Source of the DNA: Sediminibacter sp. Hel_I_10
Lineage (GTDB): Bacteria; Bacteroidota; Bacteroidia; Flavobacteriales; Flavobacteriaceae
DNA: 64,000 bases
Direction: 5' to 3'
Assembly (NCBI RefSeq): GCF_000688335.1
Contig: NZ_JHZX01000001.1
Coordinates: 992,001 to 1,056,000, forward strand
The position numbers and the translations under genes are program-made. Under the pieces are notes generated by a model that did not search any database, was not told the DNA's origin, and saw only the letters and a list, made by a program, of their open reading frames with translations. Below, one piece after another: positions 41,000 to 53,598 of this stretch; positions within the stretch are counted from its first letter, which is position 1, and each line of letters opens with the position of its first letter.

Positions 41000-41081
41000 A
41001 AGGGGCTCTAGAACCTACTCACCGTGTGATTAATTCAATTTCTTTCCATTGATCAAGAGCCTTTCAGATTTTTTTTCCAAC

Positions 41082-41124
41082 TGACAAAAGTCATAAAATA
41101 AGGCGATGTGCTGCCCTAAATTTG
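41082..41124 (+). promoter_or_regulatory. Fnr-type site and perfect -7 element before the small membrane protein/hemN pair
   Basis: TGAC-AAAA-GTCA (41082-41093) is centred exactly 33 bp upstream of the perfect -7 element TAAATTTG (41117-41124). The same 12-bp palindrome (on the opposite strand) precedes ccoS and ccoI at the same distance. Predicted start about 41131 leaves an 18-nt leader before ATG 41149 and rules out an upstream start at 41122. Confidence 0.7.
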
Positions 41125-41148
41125 TTGTATCATTTTAAATCAATAGTT

Positions 41149-41433
41149 ATGACAACTTTAGGAAAATTAGAAAAAGACTTTACAAAAAACATAATGGGTT
41201 ACTCTGCAATGGGCATTGTACTCTCTACGTGTTTAGGATCAATTGCTATCATGCAAATACTCACGTTTGGCTATGGATTTCTACAAATGGCTCTAGTCAT
41301 GATTTGCCTTACGATCTGTACGCTTCATAATGCGGCAATCATTTCGGTACAAAAACCGCAGTTAATTTTTAAACTCCTTGTTACTAGTGTTATTATTAAC
41401 ACGCTCGTACTTTTTATCAGCCTATTTCTATGA
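41149..41433 (+). CDS. Small membrane protein co-expressed with hemN
   Basis: 94 residues from ATG 41149. An N-terminal amphipathic stretch is followed by three hydrophobic segments (about 18-38, 41-60, 72-93). I do not recognise a family. Its stop overlaps the hemN start (ATGA), so the two are translationally coupled, and both sit behind an Fnr-type site. A role in microaerobic membrane or heme metabolism is inferred from context only. Confidence 0.75.
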   Translation: MTTLGKLEKDFTKNIMGYSAMGIVLSTCLGSIAIMQILTFGYGFLQMALVMICLTICTLHNAAIISVQKPQLIFKLLVTSVIINTLVLFISLFL

Positions 41434-42818
41434 TTGATCCCAGAACACTCATTTCAAAATATAACGTCCCTGGTCCCAGATACACAAGCTATCCCACTGT
41501 CCCTTATTGGGATGCGGATAGCTTTTCTGCTTCAACTTGGAAACAAAGCCTTAAAATAGGACTTGATATTGACAGCCATTCTAAAACAACAAACATAAAG
41601 CAAAACAGTATTAGTCTTTATATACACTTGCCTTTTTGCGAAAGCATGTGTACGTTTTGTGGCTGTAATAAGCGCATCACCAAAAATCATTTGGTAGAAA
41701 CCCCATACATCAAGGCCCTACTTAAAGAACTCTCTATGTATGTGGAGATTTTAGGCAAGCGCCCAACCATACAGCAACTGCATTTTGGAGGTGGTACGCC
41801 CACCTTTTTTTCCTCTGAAAATTTAGAGACATTATTAATCGGGATTTTTAAAATTGCTGATAAATCCAAAAATTGCGAGTTTAGCTTTGAAGGCCACCCA
41901 AACAATACTACAGCCCAGCATTTGAAGATGTTCAATCGTAACGGATTTAGCCGTGTGTGTTACGGCGTACAAGACTATAATATAACCGTACAAAAAGCCA
42001 TTAACCGGATACAACCTTTTGAAAATGTTCAACAAGCGACCATCAATGCGCGTAAAGCAGGCTTTGAGTCTGTAGGTCACGACATTATTTATGGGCTACC
42101 ATACCAAACCCAAGATCACGTTGTGCATACCATAAACCAAACCATCTCGTTAATGCCAGACCGGATTGCATTTTACAGTTATGCCCATGTACCATGGATC
42201 AAAGGGAATGGGCAACGTGGCTATAGCGAAAAGCATTTACCGTCTCCTGAGCAAAAACGATTTCAATATGAAATAGGCAAAACCATGCTTTTAAATGCGG
42301 GTTATGTAGAAATAGGAATGGATCATTTTGCCCTAAAAACCGACGCACTTTATAAAGCACAGCAAACAGGAATCTTACACCGTAATTTTATGGGTTACAA
42401 TGCATCAAAAACCGACATTATGATTGGGCTTGGCGTATCTGCTATTGGTGACAGTTGGTTTGGTTTTGCGCAAAATGTAAAAACCTTGAAATCCTATTAT
42501 CAATTGTTAAAAAATAATAGCCTCCCCGTTATGCGTGGACATATATTAAATGAGGAGGACTTGATCATTAGAAAGCACATCCTCAACTTAATGTGCAGGT
42601 TTGAAACCTCTTGGGATGAAACTCAAAAACAGATTGACATGGATAAAATTTTAGCCAAGCTCTCTGAAATGGAAGACGATGGCTTAGTTGTTATTGGTGA
42701 AAACAGTTTAAAAATCACCGCCTCTGGTAAGCCTTATGTAAGAAACGTTTGCTTACCCTTCGACCTAAGATTACAACGAAAAAAACCAGATACGAAATTG
42801 TTTTCTATGACTGTATGA
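41430..42818 (+). CDS. hemN: Oxygen-independent coproporphyrinogen III oxidase
   Basis: 462 residues. A radical-SAM core with CESMCTFCGC provides the Fe-S ligands Cys70, Cys74 and Cys77 (CxxxCxxC). PRYTSYPTVP near the N-terminus and HFGGGTPTF are HemN hallmarks. It converts coproporphyrinogen III to protoporphyrinogen IX without O2, consistent with its Fnr-type promoter and its position near the cbb3 oxidase genes. It overlaps the preceding small membrane gene by 4 bp. Confidence 0.96.
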   Translation: MIDPRTLISKYNVPGPRYTSYPTVPYWDADSFSASTWKQSLKIGLDIDSHSKTTNIKQNSISLYIHLPFCESMCTFCGCNKRITKNHLVETPYIKALLKELSMYVEILGKRPTIQQLHFGGGTPTFFSSENLETLLIGIFKIADKSKNCEFSFEGHPNNTTAQHLKMFNRNGFSRVCYGVQDYNITVQKAINRIQPFENVQQATINARKAGFESVGHDIIYGLPYQTQDHVVHTINQTISLMPDRIAFYSYAHVPWIKGNGQRGYSEKHLPSPEQKRFQYEIGKTMLLNAGYVEIGMDHFALKTDALYKAQQTGILHRNFMGYNASKTDIMIGLGVSAIGDSWFGFAQNVKTLKSYYQLLKNNSLPVMRGHILNEEDLIIRKHILNLMCRFETSWDETQKQIDMDKILAKLSEMEDDGLVVIGENSLKITASGKPYVRNVCLPFDLRLQRKKPDTKLFSMTV

Positions 42819-42840
42819 TTATAAAATTTGAGCATAATTT

Positions 42841-42875
42841 AAAAAGGGGAATTCTAAAATAGAGCTTCCCTTTTT
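42841..42875. terminator. Bidirectional terminator between hemN and safE-like gene
   Basis: AAAAAGGGGAA (42841-42851) pairs with TTCCCTTTTT (42866-42875) with one bulge, and gives T-runs on both strands. It lies between convergent genes. Confidence 0.65.
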
Positions 42876-42903
42876 CTGTAGATTAACGCAACATAAAAAG
42901 AAA

Positions 42904-43611
42904 TTAATGACAAGACTGTTTTGATGAGAGTTGCTCTACCGTTACTATTTCCGAAGGAGAAACATAAGGAATCCCTAATCCTAGCCCTCTCAAGATAAAT
43001 AAGACCCCCATAATAACAATAAAGACAGGCACAGCTTTTATTATCCGTTTTTTAAAGGTACCGTTTAAAAAGTTACCTAAATAAGTAGCCACGGTCATTA
43101 ACGGAACGGTACCCAAACCAAAAAAAATCATGTAAAATCCGCCTTGCCAAGCACTACCAGCTGCAATACTTCCAAAAACAGCCATATAAACCAACCCGCA
43201 CGGTAAAAAACCGTTTAGAAAGCCAATGGTAAAGAAGCTATCCATTGATTTGCGTTTTAACTCCGCTCCTAAAGAGCGTTTCACTTTAGCAACCCATTTA
43301 TATATAAATTTAGAGCCATTATAACGACTAAATATCTTAGAGGGCAATAGAATGACTAGAATCATCAAAACACCTATTGCTATGGAAATATACTGCTGAA
43401 ACCCGAATAAATAGAGTCGCTTTCCTAAAAAGCCAAATAATACACCAATAATGCTATAGGTCAACAACCGACCAACATGATAGATCAATACTTGAAGCAC
43501 TCGCTTTGCCGGATTATGTCTATCTACCGGAAGTAAAAATACAATAGGGCCACACATACCGATGCAATGGAAACTCCCCAATAAACCGAATATGAGCGCT
43601 GTATATAGCAT
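42904..43611 (-). CDS. Sulfite exporter TauE/SafE family-like membrane protein of the cco operon
   Basis: 235 residues with about six membrane segments. The N-terminal LGSFHCIGMCGPIVFLLP has the paired cysteines seen in the CcoI/SafE-like urease/cytochrome accessory branch. Related proteins occur in Bacteroidota cbb3 clusters, probably for copper handling or heme-protein maturation; the substrate is not established. It is the last gene of the operon, 2 bp after ccoH. Confidence 0.85.
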   Translation of the reverse strand: MLYTALIFGLLGSFHCIGMCGPIVFLLPVDRHNPAKRVLQVLIYHVGRLLTYSIIGVLFGFLGKRLYLFGFQQYISIAIGVLMILVILLPSKIFSRYNGSKFIYKWVAKVKRSLGAELKRKSMDSFFTIGFLNGFLPCGLVYMAVFGSIAAGSAWQGGFYMIFFGLGTVPLMTVATYLGNFLNGTFKKRIIKAVPVFIVIMGVLFILRGLGLGIPYVSPSEIVTVEQLSSKQSCH

Positions 43612-43613
43612 CT

Positions 43614-44063
43614 TTAATAGATGATTTGTTTTTTAAACCGATACTGTTTGCCTTCGTACTCCCAATCGATCGTAATATTCCAACGTCCATCTAATAAGCG
43701 ATGATCTGGTATGAGCACCTTTGAATCTGTTAACTTTTCAATAGGAAGATCAAAATCCAATAGTTTATTTGACGGTCTGTACAAATAGACCACTCCCTTT
43801 ATTTTATTGGACTCGTACCCCTCTGGAAATTGGAGCATATAGCCCATTTCATTTTTGAAGCTCTTAATCTGGAGCTCCATGTCTGCAGTATTTTGTTGCG
43901 CATAAATATCATCCTGTAATTCCTGCTCTTTCTGATAGTAACCCTCTGTTACCAAATCGTGATTTAGGCTATTCTCTGTACTGATTCTATAAACAAAAAA
44001 CAGAATAAAACCCATAAAAAGTGCCATTCCAATTACCAATCCTGTTCCCCAATTAATTTTCAT
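43614..44063 (-). CDS. ccoH: FixH/CcoH family protein
   Basis: 149 residues. One N-terminal membrane helix (about 6-26; GLVIGMALFMGFILFFVYRI) followed by a periplasmic domain with YYQKEQELQDDI, the conserved FixH segment. It assists cbb3 oxidase assembly. Its start overlaps the 3' end of the Cys-rich microprotein gene by 11 bp. Confidence 0.88.
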   Translation of the reverse strand: MKINWGTGLVIGMALFMGFILFFVYRISTENSLNHDLVTEGYYQKEQELQDDIYAQQNTADMELQIKSFKNEMGYMLQFPEGYESNKIKGVVYLYRPSNKLLDFDLPIEKLTDSKVLIPDHRLLDGRWNITIDWEYEGKQYRFKKQIIY

Positions 44064-44208
44064 GATGTTCTAATTTAGTCTCATTTTTTTGTACTTCTTG
44101 CGATGTCCTGAGCTTGTTTAACATCTGCTTTGCTTTGCAAGAAGGGTTTTCACCTGGATGCCCGTTTTGACAGCCTTTACAGCATTTCTTTTGGGTTTGA
44201 TCTTTCAT
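44053..44208 (-). CDS. Cysteine-rich microprotein between ccoG and ccoH, 51 residues
   Basis: ATG at 44208, stop TAA at 44053-44055. The product starts MKDQTQKKCCKGCQNGHPGE and contains SCKAKQ, giving cysteines at 9, 10, 13 and 24 with His17: a CCxxC-x10-C pattern suited to metal binding. The rest is charged and soluble, with no signal peptide. It lies 43 bp after ccoG and overlaps ccoH by 11 bp, as a genuine operon member would. I do not know a named family. A copper or zinc role is inferred only from its composition and neighbours. Confidence 0.75.
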   Translation of the reverse strand: MKDQTQKKCCKGCQNGHPGENPSCKAKQMLNKLRTSQEVQKNETKLEHHEN

Positions 44209-44251
44209 AAATCTTTTATTTTTATTAGTTTTTACGGTCTTCTAAAAAGCA

Positions 44252-45673
44252 TTAATTAAAACTTCTTGGCCCCAGAAAGGCAGTACGTGTGGTTTCAATC
44301 TGTTCATCACCACTAAACACACCTATGAGTACCTTATCTTTATCACCACTTAAGGCACTGGCATTAACTTCTATAAAAAGAGTACCCTGCACAAGTTCTC
44401 CTGCAGGAACCATTAAATTCTCATGACTCACAATTTCAATAGTCCCTTTATGAGAGAGTAGTTTAAAGCTCACGTCTTTAATATCCGTATTGGTTTTATT
44501 CACCAATTTGTAGGTATAAACATTACTGATCATGTTATCTGCTTTATGTTCGTAAAGCTGGCCCGGTAATCTTAGAATATCGGCTTCTACGTCATTTCTT
44601 AAAAAGAGCATTCCCACTAAAACCGAAATCAATATCCCTAAAACAACACTATATCCTTTAAGACGCGGCGTAAATTCAAAAGACGTTTTTTTCTCTATAT
44701 TTTCTTCGCTGGCGTAACGAATCAATCCTTTAGGAAGATCAACTGCCTCCATAATCGTATTGCAAGCGTCTATACATGCTGTACAGTTAATACATTCTAA
44801 CTGCGTACCATTGCGAATATCAATTCCCGTTGGGCATACGTTGACACATTGATAGCAATCAATACAGTCTCCTTTTCCTGTGACTTCACGATCTTCATTT
44901 TTCTTAAGTTTTGCCCGACCTTTCTCTTTTTCTCCTCGTTTATGATCATAGGCCACAACAATGGATTTATTGTCTAACAATGCACCTTGCAATCTTCCGT
45001 ATGGACAAACAATGATACAGACCTGCTCTCTAAACCAAGCAAACACAAAATAGAATACCCCTGTAAAAATGGTGAGTGAAATTAAGGTGCTCCAATGTGC
45101 TGTAGGACCATCTATGACGTAACGAATCAAACGATCGCTACCTATCAAATACGCCAAAAAGACATTGGCTATTAAAAATGAAATGATAAAAAAGATCAGC
45201 CATTTTAATGAGCGTTTTAAGATCTTCTCTTTCGTCCAACTCATTTTTGCGAGCCTTATCTGTTTCCCTCGATCACCATCTATCCAATACTCAATGCGGC
45301 GGAAGACCATTTCCATAAAAATGGTTTGCGGACAAACCCATCCGCAAAATAATCTACCAAAGGCTACTGTAAATAAGATGACAAACACCACACCCGTAAT
45401 CATCATGATTACAAAAATGTAGAAATCCTGTGGCCAAAATGGTTGTCCGAAAATATTGAATTGTCTCTCAAGCACATTAAACATCAAAAATTGATGCCCA
45501 TTAATCTTTAAAAATGGAGAGGTAAATAAAATGACTAAAAGTACATAACTCACGTACTTTCGATATTGGTACCATTTACCCTCTGGTTTTTTTGGAAAGA
45601 TCCACGCCCGTTTACCTTCTTCACTAAGCGTTCCTATACTGTCCCTAAAATTGTCCTTGCCCTGCTCTGCCAT
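44252..45673 (-). CDS. ccoG: Cytochrome cbb3 oxidase accessory protein CcoG
   Basis: 473 residues. Five or so membrane segments; a ferredoxin-like domain with CIDCYQCVNVCPTGIDI and CINCTACIDACN supplies two 4Fe-4S clusters, and an IgG-like C-terminal domain (FixG_C) follows. Family members reduce copper for cbb3 assembly. It lies 94 bp after the cupin gene, a wider gap than elsewhere in the operon. Confidence 0.95.
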   Translation of the reverse strand: MAEQGKDNFRDSIGTLSEEGKRAWIFPKKPEGKWYQYRKYVSYVLLVILFTSPFLKINGHQFLMFNVLERQFNIFGQPFWPQDFYIFVIMMITGVVFVILFTVAFGRLFCGWVCPQTIFMEMVFRRIEYWIDGDRGKQIRLAKMSWTKEKILKRSLKWLIFFIISFLIANVFLAYLIGSDRLIRYVIDGPTAHWSTLISLTIFTGVFYFVFAWFREQVCIIVCPYGRLQGALLDNKSIVVAYDHKRGEKEKGRAKLKKNEDREVTGKGDCIDCYQCVNVCPTGIDIRNGTQLECINCTACIDACNTIMEAVDLPKGLIRYASEENIEKKTSFEFTPRLKGYSVVLGILISVLVGMLFLRNDVEADILRLPGQLYEHKADNMISNVYTYKLVNKTNTDIKDVSFKLLSHKGTIEIVSHENLMVPAGELVQGTLFIEVNASALSGDKDKVLIGVFSGDEQIETTRTAFLGPRSFN

Positions 45674-45767
45674 TAATTCCTATAATTTTCAATCTTGAAA
45701 ATAATCTTCTTACAATATTCAGTCTCAACCCCTACATTGATTTAGAGATTTAAGTCAGGCATCATCT

Positions 45768-46073
45768 CTATGAAAGCTCTTGACTTAGAAACAACAAAAT
45801 GATAGCATCATCCCAAGCCATAACACTATGCTTTAGATTTAAAGGGATTTCGTAACTCTCAAAACACGCATAGCGTCTACTTTCTTTTTCTGTATTAAAA
45901 TCCACTTCGCCCTTAATCACCAATAACGTTGCTTTACAAGGAGCGACATGTTCTGTCAACTGCACGCCACGCCTCAAACCGATAGCCACAATCTTCGTTT
46001 GGTTGTAATCGTAAATTGTTTTGATAATTGGCTGATCATTACAGCTTAACTTCTCGATTACTTCTGAAAGCAT
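45768..46073 (-). CDS. Small cupin-domain protein in the cbb3 operon
   Basis: 101 residues. A single beta-barrel cupin is suggested by GVQLTEHVAPCKATLLVIKG and EIPLNLKHSVMAWDDAIIL; possible metal ligands are His42 and the His of LKHSV. No signal peptide. It lies 14 bp after ccoP, inside the oxidase operon. Function unknown; metal storage or sensing would fit the context. Confidence 0.75.
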   Translation of the reverse strand: MLSEVIEKLSCNDQPIIKTIYDYNQTKIVAIGLRRGVQLTEHVAPCKATLLVIKGEVDFNTEKESRRYACFESYEIPLNLKHSVMAWDDAIILLFLSQELS

Positions 46074-46087
46074 GACATTTTAGTGTT

Positions 46088-47059
46088 TTAATTAACTACA
46101 TCACCTGTAACGGGCTGATCTTCAATAATGACCTGGATTTCTGTACTGTCTTTTACTTTTACCTCAACCTGTTCTACAGGAGCAAGAGGATCCATCCATA
46201 GCTCACCTTCTGGCTCTTTAGGATCTGCGGGATTAGTCCCGTGCAGACTCAAAATGTAGCTGGCCACTTGCGCCATTTCAGAAGGTTTTAGATTAGATTT
46301 CCATGAGATCATTCCTTTTCCTGCCCGGCCACCTTCAGAAATGGTTTTAAAGACGTTTTTAATTCCGCCACCTAAAATCCAATAATCATCGGTGAGATTT
46401 GGACCAATTCCGCCAGCACCACCAACTTTATGACATGCCACACAGTTTCCAGAAAATATGGCTTCTCCTGCTTTAAGATCACTGGCATCTGTTAATTGCT
46501 CAACGGTATTGAAATCCACTAAATCTTTAGCTGTTCTCTTATATTCTTCAATCTCTACTTTAGCCTGAGCTACAGCAATCTCATATTCTTCGATTTGATT
46601 TACGCCTCCAAAAATTTGAAACCGGGCCATATAAACTATGGCAAATACAATGGTTGCATAAAACCCATAGACCCACCAAGGCGGCAATTTATTATCCAAC
46701 TCTCTAATGCCATCATAGTTATGATCTAAGACAATCTCACCTTCTTCTTCAAGAGGTTTACTCCCAAGCATTTTTTTGTAGGTTTCCTTGATCCATTTAA
46801 AACGTTCTGCTTTTACCAAAGCCAAACGCGCATCATATCTTGCCTGCTTTTCTTCGGAAAGTGATCTATACATCACATTACGTAAAGCTTCTAAACAAAT
46901 TTCAAAAGCAAAATGCACCAAAACAATTACTCCTACAAAGACCCAGATCCAAGTCTGTTCAATAGCGTTTGATACGCCTTCCATTGTACTTATATAATTG
47001 AGCAATAGAGATGCAAAAAGCCCAAAAACCAAAATTCTAATGAGTGCTGCTGTTTTCAT
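46088..47059 (-). CDS. ccoP: cbb3 oxidase subunit III, single-heme form
   Basis: 323 residues. Two N-terminal membrane helices (about 8-22 and 35-55), another at about 130-148, then a periplasmic cytochrome c domain with one CxxCH (CVACH, 206-210) and axial Met in GKGMISWKS. Proteobacterial CcoP carries two hemes c; only one binding motif is present here. Its start overlaps the ccoQ stop by 4 bp. Confidence 0.95.
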   Translation of the reverse strand: MKTAALIRILVFGLFASLLLNYISTMEGVSNAIEQTWIWVFVGVIVLVHFAFEICLEALRNVMYRSLSEEKQARYDARLALVKAERFKWIKETYKKMLGSKPLEEEGEIVLDHNYDGIRELDNKLPPWWVYGFYATIVFAIVYMARFQIFGGVNQIEEYEIAVAQAKVEIEEYKRTAKDLVDFNTVEQLTDASDLKAGEAIFSGNCVACHKVGGAGGIGPNLTDDYWILGGGIKNVFKTISEGGRAGKGMISWKSNLKPSEMAQVASYILSLHGTNPADPKEPEGELWMDPLAPVEQVEVKVKDSTEIQVIIEDQPVTGDVVN

Positions 47060-47244
47060 AAGTCGCCGTGTTTTGAATTGCTATCTAATGGAAGCTGACT
47101 CACTTCGTCAATATGAGCTTTGCTCGTTGTAAATACCCAATAAAAAAGTGCAACAAAAAAGAAAAAGAAAATGAGCAGTGAAATAATTGGGTAGATTTCT
47201 ACGCCATCAATATTTTCTAGATTGCCTTTTATATATTTTAACAT
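47056..47244 (-). CDS. ccoQ: CcoQ-like small subunit
   Basis: 62 residues. One strongly hydrophobic helix (about 17-38, IYPIISLLIFFFFFVALFYW), then a short charged cytoplasmic tail, the architecture of CcoQ/FixQ. It lies 2 bp after ccoNO and overlaps ccoP by 4 bp. Confidence 0.88.
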   Translation of the reverse strand: MLKYIKGNLENIDGVEIYPIISLLIFFFFFVALFYWVFTTSKAHIDEVSQLPLDSNSKHGDL

Positions 47245-47246
47245 AT

Positions 47247-49451
47247 CTATTCGTTTTTATCTGCGGTTAATTTGTCATTCGTTTTGATTTTAATGTCTGT
47301 TCCCAAGCGCTGTAGGTAAGCAATAAGCGCAACAACTTCGCGGTTTCGCATTTCTACAAAGACCTCGTTATTTTCTTTGGCATAGGCTTTGTCAGCTTCG
47401 TATGTTTTTACGAAATCCGGATCAGCATTGAGACGCTGTTCTATTTGAGTGCCTTGCTCTGTCATCCACGCTTGTGCTCGTTCTATTTCAGCTGTTGTAT
47501 AAGGCACTCCCAAAGTGACCATGGCTTCCATCTTAGCTTCGGTTTGAGATTTGTCAAGCTCATTTTTTATCAGCCATTTATAAGACGGCATTATAGAACC
47601 TGAACTTGTACTTTGTGGATCATAAAGGTGATTGAGATGCCAGTTGTCATTATATTTTCCGCCGACCCTAAAAAGATCTGGTCCTGTACGTTTACTGCCC
47701 CAAAGAAATGGATGATCATAAACATACTCTCCAGATTTTGAATACTCTCCATAGCGTTCTACCTCACTTCTAAAAGGTCTTATCATTTGCGAGTGACAAG
47801 ACACACAGCCTTCTCGAATGTAAAGATCACGGCCCTCCAACTCCAAGGGTGTGTATGGTTTTACGGTAGAAATTACAGGCACATAATCATCAACCATGAG
47901 CGATGGAATAATTTGAACCATCCCGCCTATCAAGATAGCCACGGTGGCAAAAATTGTTAATTTCACAGGACGTCTTTCTAACCAGGTATGATAACCTTCG
48001 TTTAGGGTTCTTTTTTTAGTGACGCGTTGTAGAGGCGATGATTCTGCCAATTCATCGGTAACCGTACTGCCGTTTCTAACTGTTTTAACAATGTTGTACA
48101 ACATTACAAAAGCACCAAGAATGTACAATGTTCCCCCAATGGCACGCATCCAATACATAGGGATGATCTCGTTGAGCGTCTCAAGAAAGTTTCCGTAAGT
48201 GAGCGTTCCGTCTGGATTGAATTGTTTCCACATAGAAGCTTGAACAAAACCTGCAACATACATTGGAAGCGTATACATAATGATCCCTAAGGTGCCTACC
48301 CAAAAATGCACGTTTGCCAGTTTGGTAGACCACAAGGATGTTTTAAAGAGCCTTGGTACAAGCCAATAAATCATTCCAAAAGTTAAGAATCCGTTCCAGC
48401 CTAAGGCTCCTACATGTACGTGCGCAATGATCCAATCACTAAAATGAGCAACAGCGTTAACATTTTTGAGTGATAGCATTGGACCTTCAAAAGTGGCCAT
48501 ACCATAACAGGTTATCGCTACGACCATAAATTTAAGAACAGGATCTGTTCTCACTTTATCCCACGCACCCCTTAAGGTGAGTAAACCGTTGATCATACCT
48601 CCCCAAGATGGGGCAATAAGCATGATTGAGAAGGCAACGCCTAGATTTTGAGCCCAGTCTGGTAAAGCAGAGTATAATAAGTGATGCGGGCCAGCCCAGA
48701 TATAAATAAAAATTAGAGACCAAAAATGCACAATAGACAGACGGTACGAATACACTGGTCTGTTGGCCGCTTTGGGTACAAAATAATACATCAAACCTAG
48801 AAATGGCGTGGTAAGAAAAAATGCAACAGCATTATGCCCATACCACCACTGTACCAACGCATCTTGAACACCTGCATAAGCCGAATAACTCTTTAATGCA
48901 CTAATTGGAAGTTCGATACTATTGACAATATGAAGCACAGCAACCGTCACAAATGTTGCTAGGTAGAACCAGATGGCCACATATAAGTGACGCTGTCTTC
49001 TCTTTAGAATTGTTCCTATTAAATTGGCACCAAAAGCCACCCAAATTACAGCTATTGCAATATCAAAAGGCCACTCTAATTCGGCGTATTCTTTAGAGGT
49101 TGTATAGCCTAAGGGCAATGAAATAGCGGCTCCAACAATGATGGCCTGCCACCCCCAAAAATTTAAATTACTTAACCAATCTTTCCACATCCTTGCCTTA
49201 AGCAAACGTTGTGTAGAATAATAAACGCCCGCAAAAATGGCATTTCCTACAAAGGCAAAAATAACGGCATTGGTGTGTAAGGGACGTAAACGCCCAAAAC
49301 TTAGCCATGAAATACCATCGGTGATGTTAGGAAATAAAAACATAAAGGCGAGCAAAAGCCCCACGCTCATCCCTACGATACCCCAAAAAATAGTGGCATT
49401 TACAAATTTCTTTACGATGACATTATCGTAGTAAAATTGTTCTGTTTGCAT
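47247..49451 (-). CDS. ccoNO: cbb3 oxidase fused subunits I and II (CcoN-CcoO)
   Basis: 734 residues. Residues about 1-480 form the heme-copper catalytic subunit with about twelve membrane helices and conserved histidines (HTNAVIFAF, WYGHNAVAF, IIAHVHVGALGWN). Residues about 510-734 form CcoO, with one membrane anchor and a heme c motif REGCVSCHSQM. Fusion of these two subunits is known in Bacteroidota. Reduces O2 with high affinity at the inner membrane. Confidence 0.97.
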   Translation of the reverse strand: MQTEQFYYDNVIVKKFVNATIFWGIVGMSVGLLLAFMFLFPNITDGISWLSFGRLRPLHTNAVIFAFVGNAIFAGVYYSTQRLLKARMWKDWLSNLNFWGWQAIIVGAAISLPLGYTTSKEYAELEWPFDIAIAVIWVAFGANLIGTILKRRQRHLYVAIWFYLATFVTVAVLHIVNSIELPISALKSYSAYAGVQDALVQWWYGHNAVAFFLTTPFLGLMYYFVPKAANRPVYSYRLSIVHFWSLIFIYIWAGPHHLLYSALPDWAQNLGVAFSIMLIAPSWGGMINGLLTLRGAWDKVRTDPVLKFMVVAITCYGMATFEGPMLSLKNVNAVAHFSDWIIAHVHVGALGWNGFLTFGMIYWLVPRLFKTSLWSTKLANVHFWVGTLGIIMYTLPMYVAGFVQASMWKQFNPDGTLTYGNFLETLNEIIPMYWMRAIGGTLYILGAFVMLYNIVKTVRNGSTVTDELAESSPLQRVTKKRTLNEGYHTWLERRPVKLTIFATVAILIGGMVQIIPSLMVDDYVPVISTVKPYTPLELEGRDLYIREGCVSCHSQMIRPFRSEVERYGEYSKSGEYVYDHPFLWGSKRTGPDLFRVGGKYNDNWHLNHLYDPQSTSSGSIMPSYKWLIKNELDKSQTEAKMEAMVTLGVPYTTAEIERAQAWMTEQGTQIEQRLNADPDFVKTYEADKAYAKENNEVFVEMRNREVVALIAYLQRLGTDIKIKTNDKLTADKNE

Positions 49452-49461
49452 AGTCTCTCAG

Positions 49462-49662
49462 TTACTGGTTTAAATTATCTAGTGTTGTAGTTGATTTCTT
49501 TTTGATAGGTTTATCTTTCACCAATTCATCTTCAAAAAGCATTCTTACCGATGGTGTGTAAGTGTCATCATACTGTCCCCTACTTACCGAATACACAAAT
49601 GCGATAAAGAAAATAACGGCCACAATAACACTCACGGCGAGTAATAGATAAATGATACTCAT
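49462..49662 (-). CDS. ccoS: cbb3 oxidase maturation protein CcoS
   Basis: 66 residues. One N-terminal membrane helix (MSIIYLLLAVSVIVAVIFFI), then YDDTYTPSVRMLFEDE, typical of CcoS. First gene of the operon, 10 bp before ccoNO, and directly behind an Fnr-type promoter. Confidence 0.93.
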   Translation of the reverse strand: MSIIYLLLAVSVIVAVIFFIAFVYSVSRGQYDDTYTPSVRMLFEDELVKDKPIKKKSTTTLDNLNQ

Positions 49663-49681
49663 ATCTTTTTGTATTATGGTG

Positions 49682-49724
49682 TAAAATTATTGAGATAGGG
49701 GTTCTTAAAAGATGACTTTTGTCA
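49682..49724 (-). promoter_or_regulatory. Fnr-type site and -7 element of the ccoS-ccoNO operon
   Basis: TGAC-TTTT-GTCA (49713-49724) is centred 33 bp upstream of TAATTTTA (minus strand, 49682-49689; 7 of 8 to TAnnTTTG). Predicted start about 49677 leaves a 15-nt leader before ccoS. Confidence 0.7.
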
Positions 49725-49801
49725 GTTATGGAAAATTATCCCGAAAATAATGGACATGAACTTTCAGCCCTTTGCTTTAAATTTGAAGCTTCAGTCGTTT
49801 A

Positions 49802-50041
49802 TTAAACCATGACATACATGCCAAAAATTGCGGCTTCTTTATGGAGATTGATTATGGACCGTTTTACTAATTGGCTATTGGTATAAGACAATCTTTTCAT
49901 CGATTGTAGTTTAATTTGCAAACCATAAAACGCTTCTTTCAAATTACGCTGAGTTTCAATATTCCCAATGCCTTGATTTTTATGGTAAATGGATTGCAGT
50001 GATTCTAATTGCTTTGCTAATTGTGTGATTTTCTTATTCAT
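49802..50041 (-). CDS. Small hypothetical protein after ccoI
   Basis: 79 residues, helical and Lys/Gln-rich (KITQLAKQLESLQSIYHKNQ), without signal or membrane segment. It starts 2 bp after the ccoI stop on the same strand, so it is likely translated from the same message. I recognise no family. A real gene is likely from its position, but composition alone does not prove it. Confidence 0.5.
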   Translation of the reverse strand: MNKKITQLAKQLESLQSIYHKNQGIGNIETQRNLKEAFYGLQIKLQSMKRLSYTNSQLVKRSIINLHKEAAIFGMYVMV

Positions 50042-50043
50042 TT

Positions 50044-52503
50044 TTATTTCATGTGTTTTTTGAGCTGCTTTCCTAAGAAGTAGGTGCAGATTGTTGTAAA
50101 AACCACTATGGTAATAGAACTTAGTGGCATTAAAATAGCAGCCACAACCGGTCTAAGATGGCCTGTTACAGCAAAACTCAACCCAATGAGGTTATAAATT
50201 AGAGAGCCTATAAATGCATATTTTATAATTTGAATCGACTTTCTAGAAAGCGTCATATATGTGCTCAAATCTCTTAATCTAGAGGCATCTATAATGCCAT
50301 CACAAGCGGGTGAAAACACATTGATATCTTCGGAAACCGCAAAACCAACATCACTTTGTGCCAAGGCTCCAGAATCGTTTAAGCCATCCCCCACCATCAT
50401 GACCTTTTTGCCCTGTTGCTGAAGTTTTTTAATAAATAGCAACTTGTCTTCTGGTTTCTGATTGAATTTTAATTCAGCCGATGCAGGCAGTTGTGTTTTA
50501 AGGTAAGCCTCCTCTCCATCGTTATCACCAGACAGCACCACCAAATGCGCCAATTGGCTCATTTCAGAAAAAAGCTGAGACATCCCTTCACGATAGGTAG
50601 TACTAAAAACATAAGCCCCCTTGTACTCATCATTCGCACTAATATGAACTTGAGTGTTTTGAGTTTCAAAAGCGGGATTTTCATGTGCTACAAAATTAAA
50701 ACTACCTACTCTAAGACTCGTATCACCGCTAATACCAATGATGCCTTGACCTGTTTCTTCACTAAAGTCATCCAAGGTACAAATACCATTATCCTGCAAC
50801 ACGTCATAGAGCGCACGGCTCAACGGATGGTTAGAGGCTTTTAGCGTACTTGTAAGTACGTGCTTCTCACTTTCGGTGAGCGAAATGCCTTCGTAAGTAA
50901 TCCCGTTTTCGTGATGCGTAGTAAGCGTCCCCGTTTTATCAAAAACCACCGTATCAATTTGTGCCATTTGCTCTATGACTCCGGTCTCTTTCAAGTACAA
51001 TTGACGCTTCCCATAAATGCGCAACATATTACCTAGTGTAAATGGTGCCGCAAGTGCAATGGCACAGGGGCAAGCAACGATGAGTACTGCCGTAAATACA
51101 TTAAATGCAATGGCAGGGTTGATAAAGAGCCATATGATGGTCGCGATTACTGCAACACTCAAAACGCCTATTGTGAAACGTTTGCTTATATGATTGGTGA
51201 GATTTTTAAAGTGTGTTGCTTTGTTTTTGCTGAAAATCTCATTGTTCCAAAGTTGGGTCAAATAGCTTTGATCAATAGATTTGACAACCTCAACTTCAAT
51301 AATTCCTGCTTGCTGCCTTCCGCCTGCAAAAATCTTATCGCCACATTGTTTGGTAACGGGTGCCGCTTCTCCTGTGACAAAACTATAGTCAATGACTGCG
51401 CTCCCCTTAATCAAAATCCCGTCTGTAGGAATGAGTTCATTATTCCTAATCAAAATACGATCTCCTCGCTTTAATTCATAAACAGGGGTCTGTAATTCTT
51501 TTGTTTTTAGAAGTTCATAGTTGTTATCATTATCCCTTTCGGAATAGCCGTATTTATGATCATTTTTGATGAGTTTTGTCACCGCTATGGGGAAATACGA
51601 TTTATAATCCCGTTCAAACGATAGAAAAGCATAGGTTTTTTGCTGAAAGAACTTACCCAGCAAGAGAAAAAAGACCAAACCTGCCAGACTATCAAAAAAG
51701 CCTGTCCCCCAATGCATCACGATGTCTAAGGTTGACCGAACAAAAAGCACTGTGATTCCTATCGCGATGGGTACGTCAATATTCAAGATCTTTGATCGTA
51801 ATCCCTTAAAAGCTGAGATGAAATAATCTCGACTAGAATAAAATACTACAGGAATCGAAAATGCAAACATGAGCCATCGAAACACTATTTTGAACTGATC
51901 TAACCAAAACTCCCCACCATCTGTATCGCCAACAAATGCTAAATATTCCGGAAAAGATAAAAACATGATATTTCCGAAGGCAAATCCTGCCACACCCAAT
52001 TTGTAAATTAGGCTTCTGTCTATTTGCGTTGTTTTCCTATTAAAATCTTCTAGTGAAATGTTAGGCTCATAACCAATTTTACAGAGTAAGATCACGACAT
52101 CTTTTAAGCTGATTTCCGAAGAATTGAAGGTGATTCGAATTGACTTTAGAGGAAAATTAACCTGACTGTTCTTTATTGAAGGCTGCAGTTTATTTAAGTT
52201 TTCTAGCACCCAAATACAAGAACTACAGTGCATATGAGGGATGATAAAAGATACAATTTGGGTATGCTGCGCATTAAACTCCAACAACTGATCCCTAATT
52301 TTTTGATTATCGAGAAAATCAAAACGTCCTTCAATTTTAAGAGGCGATTTACCAGGCTTATCCTGCAAACTGTAATAATAGGTGAGATCATTGTCCTCCA
52401 AGATCTCAAACACCATCTTACACCCGTTGCAACAGAACATTTTATCCTGATGTAAAATGGTCGTGTCACGGCAAGTGTCTCCACAATGATAACAGTTTTC
52501 CAT
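50044..52503 (-). CDS. ccoI: Copper-type P1B ATPase (CcoI/FixI-like)
   Basis: 819 residues. An N-terminal Cys-rich metal-binding segment (CYHCGDTC, FCCNGC) precedes a heavy-metal-associated domain with CSSC, then the ATPase: TGEAAPV actuator motif, VACPCAIALAAPF membrane motif (CPC near residue 478), DKTGTLT phosphorylation site (near 521) and VGDGLNDSGAL. It is predicted to export copper to the periplasm for cbb3 assembly. It has its own Fnr-type promoter. Confidence 0.95.
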   Translation of the reverse strand: MENCYHCGDTCRDTTILHQDKMFCCNGCKMVFEILEDNDLTYYYSLQDKPGKSPLKIEGRFDFLDNQKIRDQLLEFNAQHTQIVSFIIPHMHCSSCIWVLENLNKLQPSIKNSQVNFPLKSIRITFNSSEISLKDVVILLCKIGYEPNISLEDFNRKTTQIDRSLIYKLGVAGFAFGNIMFLSFPEYLAFVGDTDGGEFWLDQFKIVFRWLMFAFSIPVVFYSSRDYFISAFKGLRSKILNIDVPIAIGITVLFVRSTLDIVMHWGTGFFDSLAGLVFFLLLGKFFQQKTYAFLSFERDYKSYFPIAVTKLIKNDHKYGYSERDNDNNYELLKTKELQTPVYELKRGDRILIRNNELIPTDGILIKGSAVIDYSFVTGEAAPVTKQCGDKIFAGGRQQAGIIEVEVVKSIDQSYLTQLWNNEIFSKNKATHFKNLTNHISKRFTIGVLSVAVIATIIWLFINPAIAFNVFTAVLIVACPCAIALAAPFTLGNMLRIYGKRQLYLKETGVIEQMAQIDTVVFDKTGTLTTHHENGITYEGISLTESEKHVLTSTLKASNHPLSRALYDVLQDNGICTLDDFSEETGQGIIGISGDTSLRVGSFNFVAHENPAFETQNTQVHISANDEYKGAYVFSTTYREGMSQLFSEMSQLAHLVVLSGDNDGEEAYLKTQLPASAELKFNQKPEDKLLFIKKLQQQGKKVMMVGDGLNDSGALAQSDVGFAVSEDINVFSPACDGIIDASRLRDLSTYMTLSRKSIQIIKYAFIGSLIYNLIGLSFAVTGHLRPVVAAILMPLSSITIVVFTTICTYFLGKQLKKHMK

Positions 52504-52523
52504 AATCGTCTAAATTGCTTGAG

Positions 52524-52566
52524 CAAAGGTGTTAAGAACTCATTACGAAAAAAATGACTTTTGTCA
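52524..52566 (-). promoter_or_regulatory. Fnr-type site and -7 element of ccoI
   Basis: TGAC-TTTT-GTCA (52555-52566) is centred exactly 33 bp upstream of CACCTTTG (minus strand, 52524-52531; 7 of 8 to TAnnTTTG). The site also lies before the divergent small membrane protein and regulator; on that side a weaker TATTTTTA (52585-52592) is centred 28 bp away. Confidence 0.7.
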
Positions 52567-52628
52567 GCTTATCCTTTTTTATGATATTTTTAAAATGATC
52601 TATTTTATAAATTCATAATTTCATACTT

Positions 52629-52850
52629 ATGAAAATTTCAGCACTAACATTACTAAAACTAACAACTCTGGTGTTAATTACCGTGGTTATTTTTGCCGTG
52701 ATGAACATCTGGTTTGGTTGGATTTTCTTTGCGACCTGCGCTGGACAGATCTTATTCATTTATACTGTATATCGTATTTTAACAGATGATTATAAAACCG
52801 ATAAAACCTTTCGCGATTTTTATGAAGACAAAAACGATCTAGGATCATGA
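52629..52850 (+). CDS. Small two-helix membrane protein upstream of the Crp/Fnr regulator
   Basis: 73 residues with two hydrophobic helices (about 7-28 and 29-50) and an acidic C-terminal tail (DDYKTDKTFRDFYEDK). No family recognised. It is divergent from ccoI and 46 bp before the regulator gene on the same strand, so it may be expressed with it. Confidence 0.7.
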   Translation: MKISALTLLKLTTLVLITVVIFAVMNIWFGWIFFATCAGQILFIYTVYRILTDDYKTDKTFRDFYEDKNDLGS

Positions 52851-52896
52851 GCTTGATTTTTTTTTATTTCTAAGATTTCAGCTAGATTTGCCCTAT

Positions 52897-53598
52897 ATGG
52901 ATTCATTTGAACATTCTCGTTGCGAAAATTGCATTATCAGGCAAATGAATAGCTTTAAGGCTTTGACCAAAGAAGAATTAAAGCAAATGTCTGACAGTAA
53001 AGAGACCAAAACCATTAAAAAGGGCGAGTCCATCTTTAAAGAAGGAGATCGTGTTAATGGTGTTTTTTGCGTGAGAGAAGGCGTTTCAAAACTCACTAAA
53101 ATGAGTGATAACGGTCGGGATCAAATTGTGAAACTTGCCGCAAAAGGGGAAGTCTTAGGTCAACGATCTGTTATTACGTCTGAAAAAACCAATTTAAGCG
53201 CCACTGCCCTCGAGGATATGCAAGTTTGCTTCATTCCAAAAACACATATTGAAAGCAGTCTGCAAAACAATGCATTTTTTACCAACGCGGTGCTTAAGCA
53301 TATGGCGAATGATCTTAAATTTGCCGATGATACCATTAGGAATATGGCACAAAAAACGGTGCTTCAACGTCTTGCAGAAACACTGTTGTATCTAGACAAA
53401 AATTTTGGCAATGATGATGAAGGCTATCTTAAACTGGTGTTGACCCGCGCCGATATTGCCGATGTGGTTGGTACGGCTACTGAACTTCTTATTCGTACGC
53501 TTACGAAATTGAAAAAAACACAAGTCATCAGCACTGATGGTAAGCGGATAAAATTAGAAGATAAGAAAGCGCTTTACAATATGGCTGAAGGGATTTAA
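52897..53598 (+). CDS. Crp/Fnr-family transcriptional regulator
   Basis: 233 residues from ATG 52897 (MDSFEHSRCENC); a TTG at 52888 would add three residues. The N-terminal CENC pair plus later cysteines (FCVREG, VCFIP) could ligate an Fe-S cluster as in Fnr, but spacing differs and this is unproven. A cyclic-nucleotide-binding fold (about 25-140) and a winged helix follow, with recognition helix TRADIADVVGTATELLIRTL retaining the Glu and Arg (E-x3-R) that in Crp/Fnr read the TGA of TGA-N6-TCA. The TGAC-N4-GTCA sites nearby have just that core. Confidence 0.9.
   Translation: MDSFEHSRCENCIIRQMNSFKALTKEELKQMSDSKETKTIKKGESIFKEGDRVNGVFCVREGVSKLTKMSDNGRDQIVKLAAKGEVLGQRSVITSEKTNLSATALEDMQVCFIPKTHIESSLQNNAFFTNAVLKHMANDLKFADDTIRNMAQKTVLQRLAETLLYLDKNFGNDDEGYLKLVLTRADIADVVGTATELLIRTLTKLKKTQVISTDGKRIKLEDKKALYNMAEGI

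Follow-up and report, generated by a model that had tools for sequence, protein, structure and literature searches.

FNR of Escherichia coli holds its cluster through C20, C23, C29 and C122 and reads the site TTGAT-N4-ATCAA; FixK-type proteins are not known to carry the N-terminal cluster cysteines. For Bacillus subtilis Fnr, the accessible part of one report (PMC3520743) describes a [4Fe-4S] cluster bound by three C-terminal cysteines plus an aspartate. Here we describe a predicted Fnr-type regulon in a 64,000-nucleotide stretch of the genome of Sediminibacter sp. Hel_I_10 (Flavobacteriaceae; contig NZ_JHZX01000001.1, positions 992,001 to 1,056,000), referred to below as the window. Three copies of one palindrome stand before genes for cbb3 oxidase and haem synthesis, and the same stretch carries a gene for a Crp/Fnr-family regulator at 52897-53598. 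It is very probable, judging from the comparative data below, that this is a class II regulon in which the 52897-53598 protein is the activator and the three palindromes are its predicted operators.

Among flavobacteria, Flavobacterium psychrophilum strongly induces its cbb3 oxidase under oxygen limitation, and haem-synthesis enzymes are induced also, according to the portion of PMC9723704 that was accessible. No oxygen regulator for flavobacteria is described in the literature searched, a search that left subscription papers and regulon databases mostly outside; neither the box nor the cysteine set reported here was found described in it, and a prior description is possible.

Three boxes at a fixed distance from the promoter

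The 12-bp palindrome TGACNNNNGTCA, to which an earlier note on this DNA had drawn attention, was re-found at 41082-41093, 49713-49724 and 52555-52566. These are exactly three copies in the window, against 0.53 expected, and three or more copies arose in 2 of 100 shuffles. Read towards hemN (+), ccoS (-) and ccoI (-), all three boxes are the same 14-mer, CTGACAAAAGTCAT, and behind them stand the hemN, ccoS-ccoNO and ccoI units, so that the palindromes do precede microaerobic genes as had been claimed. Each box lies 33 bp, centre to centre, from a -7 element, and the description of these elements as one perfect and two with a single mismatch is likewise correct. The six sites are:

41081..41094, + strand: Fnr-type box CTGACAAAAGTCAT, centred 33 bp upstream of the hemN-unit -7 element
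41117..41124, + strand: -7 element TAAATTTG of the hemN unit, perfect match
49712..49725, - strand: Fnr-type box CTGACAAAAGTCAT before ccoS, sequence match
49682..49689, - strand: -7 element TAATTTTA of ccoS, one mismatch
52554..52567, - strand: Fnr-type box CTGACAAAAGTCAT before ccoI, sequence match
52524..52531, - strand: -7 element CACCTTTG of ccoI, one mismatch

Class II activators bind at -41.5. The accessible part of PMC9723704 places the TAnnTTTG element of F. psychrophilum at -12 to -5, and since its centre is then -8.5, a distance of 33 bp would put the box centre at -41.5.

The bare palindrome is not diagnostic, because 31 of its 36 copies in the 4.1-Mb genome lie inside open reading frames (ORFs) of at least 130 amino acids and the reversed control gives 26 copies; a regulon scan with it was rejected on the same grounds. 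The earlier note had held that a motif as common in coding DNA as before genes would speak against the regulon, and, taken literally for the bare palindrome, this result does go against the idea; the composite survives it. Three of the five remaining copies are the window sites, and these three are also the only ones among the 36 with an AAAA/TTTT spacer. What is diagnostic is the composite of palindrome, spacer, 33-bp distance, -7 element and position before cco or hem genes.

Conservation of the box and its spacing

For comparison we used 80 CcoNO loci and the window. With a CcoNO identity of at least 69%, 57 of these (window included) form a Flavobacteriaceae-like set, and 24 make up the rest. 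Loci with less than 120 bp of upstream DNA were left out gene by gene, and fnr was counted at 44% identity or above. Within the Flavobacteriaceae-like set TGAYN4RTCA occurs within 120 bp upstream of ccoS at 53 of 56 loci, of ccoI at 46 of 47, of fnr at 31 of 36 and of hemN at 18 of 24; the window itself is scored as a miss for hemN, its box preceding the small ORF ahead of that gene, and also for fnr. The same search found no box before ccoNO, the ccoQ-like gene and ccoP (0/56 each), ccoG (0/55), the ccoH-like gene (0/53) or the 42904-type gene (0/52). A control stretch of 120 bp, 180-300 bp past the start, held no box for ccoS, ccoI, fnr or hemN, and 1/57, 1/55 and 3/52 for ccoNO, ccoG and the 42904-type gene, respectively. 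Permuted half-sites gave at most two matches at ccoS and ccoI, the exception being YGAT (22 and 14), a pattern to which genuine TGAT-N4-ATCA sites conform as well; at fnr and hemN the highest permuted counts were nine and six.

The spacing is conserved together with the box. At exactly 33 bp, at least five of the six TAnnTTTG letters are matched at 51 of 55 ccoS, 38 of 48 ccoI and 19 of 19 hemN sites, and the element is perfect at 38, 2 and 19 of them; at ccoI, 36 of the 48 match five of the six letters. TGAC had been proposed as the defining half-site and as a departure from E. coli. We rejected it in favour of TGAY, often TGAT as in E. coli; what does depart is the outer base, which in the sites inspected is A/C where E. 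coli has T, around a TGAY-N4-RTCA core in a Bacteroidota promoter.

The fnr genes of relatives show another arrangement: among 34 sites, 15 perfect -7 matches stand 19 or 20 bp away from the box. The box would then lie near -28, a position where repression is expected, which suggests autorepression. A self-site was also sought for the fnr gene of the window, and no TGAYN4RTCA was found in the 120 bp upstream of it.

We searched 41 family genomes for the composite MTGAYN4RTCAK-N22-TAnnTTTG without mismatch and used its reversed pattern as control. It gave 257 matches in 36 genomes, and the control none in all 41. In none of the five box-less genomes (G298, G304, G320, G328 and G332) does CcoNO have a match at E 1e-30. 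Targets were listed for the 11 genomes without a match of about 350 amino acids, that is, without the receiver-Crp hybrid considered below (E 1e-12). Sixty of their 64 boxes were read, the first plausible ORF downstream being taken as the target, and the targets were grouped by BLAST with one member per group scanned against Pfam. The recurrent genes behind the composite are largely microaerobic or anaerobic. Grouped with the window proteins were ccoS (8), hemN (6, and one hemN-unit ORF) and ccoI (2). The other groups were cytochrome c type (6), Thioredoxin_9 type (6), NadA (3), pyridine-nucleotide oxidoreductase (3), multicopper oxidase with cytochrome c, which we read as copper nitrite-reductase-like (nirK-like) (2), pyruvate-formate-lyase-like (2), phosphotransacetylase (2) and a 113-amino-acid family with no Pfam match (2). 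Among the 17 singletons are OmpW, Rrf2, universal stress and S30EA-type proteins; some others, such as a glycoside hydrolase, MlaE and triosephosphate isomerase, have no obvious link to oxygen. The recurrent Thioredoxin_9-type protein is about 200 amino acids long (L298, L302, L306, L318, L322 and L341); to our knowledge it has no described role in low-oxygen physiology.

With box and spacing kept at the same genes throughout the family, 257 composite matches against none, and recurrent targets of this kind, the reading of these sites as an Fnr-type regulon is well supported.

The regulator and its DNA-reading helix

The Crp/Fnr gene with an E-x3-R pattern that had been noted at 52897 was located, with E196-x3-R200 in the recognition helix of its product. 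The gene and the promoter element before it are:

52883..52890, + strand: TAGATTTG, perfect -7 match, 6 bases before the fnr ATG (from sequence)
52897..53598, + strand: fnr, Crp/Fnr-family regulator of 233 amino acids, PF00027 and PF13545

The placement of TAGATTTG predicts an almost leaderless fnr transcript. Both Pfam models, for a cyclic-nucleotide-binding-like domain and a Crp helix-turn-helix, score above cut-off. The predicted model (predicted local distance difference test, pLDDT, 88.3) matches Aliivibrio fischeri FNR (PDB 5e44), the best match among FNRs; the best match among all solved structures is the Porphyromonas gingivalis Crp/Fnr protein 2gau. In an alignment of 33 rows E196 and R200 are invariant, which matches the conserved TGA/TCA core of the boxes. 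I199 is invariant as well. E. coli FNR has at this point a serine that faces the outer T, and an isoleucine here would be in line with the outer A/C of the boxes. Genes of the 52897 type adjoin ccoI in many relatives.

An altered set of four cysteines

Exactly four cysteines, C9, C12, C58 and C111, show no variation in 36 of 36 rows. The same holds for the 33-row alignment, to which four distant homologues (34-40% identity) were added. A. fischeri FNR also has cysteines at the positions of C9-x2-C12 and C111, the latter aligning with the C122-type cysteine, whereas opposite the extra invariant C58 it has an alanine. Only C9 and C12 are N-terminal; at the position of the third N-terminal residue among those we take to be the FNR cluster ligands, the 36 rows have N, S or T by eye. 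In the model C58 belongs to strand 55-61 and C111 to strand 108-114, presumably neighbours in the beta-roll, and C58 probably replaces the third N-terminal ligand of FNR. At the positions aligned with C58 and C111, 2gau has no cysteine. The protein also differs from FixK/FixK2 of rhizobia in that its four cysteines, C9 and C12 among them, are invariant in all 36 rows. B. subtilis and B. cereus Fnr, as far as the accessible part of the source goes, offer a precedent for a rearranged [4Fe-4S] ligand set. Their ligand cysteines are C-terminal, whereas of the four invariant cysteines here two lie near the N-terminus and two within the sensor domain, and the window protein has no cysteine after C111.

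The pattern was surveyed in 134 homologues shorter than 300 amino acids, with redundancy kept; the window copy (L126), a row with a broken frame (L177) and rows of 300 amino acids or more were left out. Two N-terminal cysteines occur together with C58 and C111 in 113 rows, and two without C58 in none; seven rows have none or one and no C58. Fourteen were flagged with three, nine lacking C58 and five having it. In L129 and L263 the extra cysteine comes from residues before the likely start, leaving 12 true three-cysteine rows, nine without C58 and three with it. These three (L159, L162 and L181) are exceptions to a strict swap, and some distant rows counted as two-cysteine carry a further cysteine nine residues on (for example L153, L157 and L170); the idea of a ligand exchange is given slightly lower odds because of both. 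A tree of 78 of the 134 rows was made by a quick method that gave long-branch warnings, with L129, L263 and L162 entered as two-cysteine rows (L162 wrongly). On the best tree C58 changes three times, with one independent pair on starred branches (sign test p = 1), so that coupled cysteine changes are not proven by this tree, on which the events are too few. With about three changes of C58 as its basis, the cysteine pattern agrees with a functional set of four cysteines in which one has moved.

Six of the seven rows with none or one N-terminal cysteine (L174, L178, L180, L182, L183 and L186) belong to one related family, f2, which has its gene some 3 kb from cco genes. None of the six keeps the N-terminal pair or C58, and the C111 column is not cysteine in any; four have a cysteine one residue before it, scored as not C111. 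A box-like site lies near the linked cco copy in five of the six genomes, and by-eye reading found no TAnnTTTG at 33 bp from these sites. The box geometry near cco in these genomes also looks changed.

We lean, if only somewhat, towards a Bacteroidota counterpart of FNR that would sense oxygen through a [4Fe-4S] cluster on C9-x2-C12 and the beta-roll pair C58/C111, an exchange inside the FNR family, with f2 having lost the whole set and so having to sense something else. The sensor is placed as one that works like FNR, yet it is not filed as FNR proper, because the ligand set is a defining feature and, when tested, proved to be a different one.

Genes of the locus

The genes behind the boxes are:

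41149..41433, + strand: ORF of 94 amino acids, first gene of the hemN unit, hydrophobic by eye
41430..42818, + strand: hemN, oxygen-independent coproporphyrinogen III oxidase, TIGR00538 above cut-off
44252..47244, - strand: ccoQ-like ORF, ccoP, ORF of 101 amino acids and ccoG, all in one direction
47247..49451, - strand: ccoNO fusion, cbb3 oxidase subunits I/II, profile match
49462..49662, - strand: ccoS, cbb3 oxidase assembly protein, profile match
50044..52503, - strand: heavy-metal P-type ATPase with N-terminal metal-binding domain, profile match; ccoI by position

The nearest relative (L294, G306) likewise has a box ahead of its counterpart of the 94-amino-acid ORF. The ccoQ-like ORF matches Pfam FixQ below cut-off. 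ccoP and ccoG carry names that we assume from gene order, and their synteny is seen in relatives; the P-type ATPase at 50044..52503 we likewise take to be CcoI. Between ccoI and fnr, at 52629-52850, lies an ORF of 73 amino acids, hydrophobic by eye, whose homologue is found beyond fnr instead in L022, L028, L029 and L039.

Weighing the proposed mechanism

At low oxygen the 52897 protein would carry a [4Fe-4S] cluster, dimerise and bind CTGACAAAAGTCAT. From its position at -41.5 it would recruit the Bacteroidota sigma-A polymerase at the TAnnTTTG -7 element by class II activation, and the cbb3 oxidase, CcoI (its presumed copper loader) and, through HemN, anaerobic haem synthesis would be switched on. 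Binding, activation, oxygen as the signal and the cluster are what we infer here.

Several results weigh against this mechanism. In the Flavobacteriaceae-like set no box was found before ccoS in L030, L040 and L057, ccoI in L057, or hemN in L019, L020, L036, L047 and L074. Outside that set the box is rarer (ccoS 8/21, ccoI 4/18, fnr 1/4 and hemN 1/9), and there it lies within 120 bp upstream of ccoNO in 10 of 24 loci. The signal is weak within the genome of the window itself. The genome scan suggested by the earlier note, made with the TGAC composite, does place the three window sites among six at no more than one mismatch, but at up to two mismatches it gives 37 places against 28 for the control. 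The refined composite has two perfect matches, before the hemN unit and an acetyl-CoA hydrolase/transferase gene, and nine with one mismatch, ccoS and ccoI included; at up to two mismatches the count is 79 against 39. G320 has an Fnr orthologue with neither a perfect box nor cbb3, and eight of the 36 box-bearing genomes (G301, G314, G316, G317, G321, G325, G329 and G333) lack a close full-length four-cysteine Fnr at E 1e-12, so that another regulator can use such boxes. The NCBIfam Fnr model scores the window protein at 103.6 bits, below its curated cut-off of 228. Finally, the accessible part of PMC8510549 predicts that a Flavobacteriales Crp/Fnr homologue, which may or may not be the 52897 protein, senses carbon (MalR-like).

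A candidate for such another regulator is encoded at 393-394 kb of G000:C1 in the same genome. There (L255:6787-10264, 391.8-395.3 kb) a PAS histidine kinase gene is followed by a receiver-Crp hybrid and then by universal stress protein genes, and several composite sites with one or two mismatches are grouped at 389-398 kb, close to these three kinds of gene. Such sites precede two usp genes beside the hybrid as well as a nearby thioredoxin gene and a pyridoxamine-oxidase-like gene. In its recognition helix the hybrid shares the ATExxIR pattern with the 52897 protein, and it may read similar boxes; several family genomes combine boxes and hybrids of about 350 amino acids with no close four-cysteine Fnr. 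In the relatives G307, G321, G322, G329 and G330, the coordinates likewise put the hybrid genes no more than about 100 bp from a box. That the hybrid is the main reader, with the 52897 protein secondary, nevertheless seems unlikely: 10 of the 11 genomes without it (all but G318, and including the nearest relative, G306) keep boxes at ccoS, ccoI or the hemN unit, and it is the 52897-type gene that sits beside ccoI in so many relatives.

The palindromes might instead belong to a constitutive promoter or be repressor sites, a view to which the fnr boxes of relatives, often closer to the -7 element, lend some colour. We give it very little weight for the activator sites proposed here, as the 33-bp spacing at ccoS, hemN and ccoI would correspond to the class II position of -41.5, and the cbb3 and haem-synthesis genes of F. 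psychrophilum are induced at low oxygen (PMC9723704). Chance recurrence of a short palindrome could draw on the poor contrast between the bare motif or the TGAC composite and their controls in the window's own genome, and on the coding position of most copies. It is refuted by the comparative counts, namely conservation at orthologous promoters, the composite total against its empty control, and the confinement of the AAAA-spacer 12-mer to three promoters, and its probability is negligible; the earlier judgement that chance repetition is very unlikely was sound.

For the Fnr-type class II regulon, the box and the 33-bp rule can be used directly to predict the regulon across the family. They may also explain the induction of cbb3 and haem genes at low oxygen in F. 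psychrophilum, as described in the accessible part of PMC9723704. If the rearranged cysteine set holds a cluster, an FNR-family oxygen sensor can be rebuilt with a beta-roll ligand.

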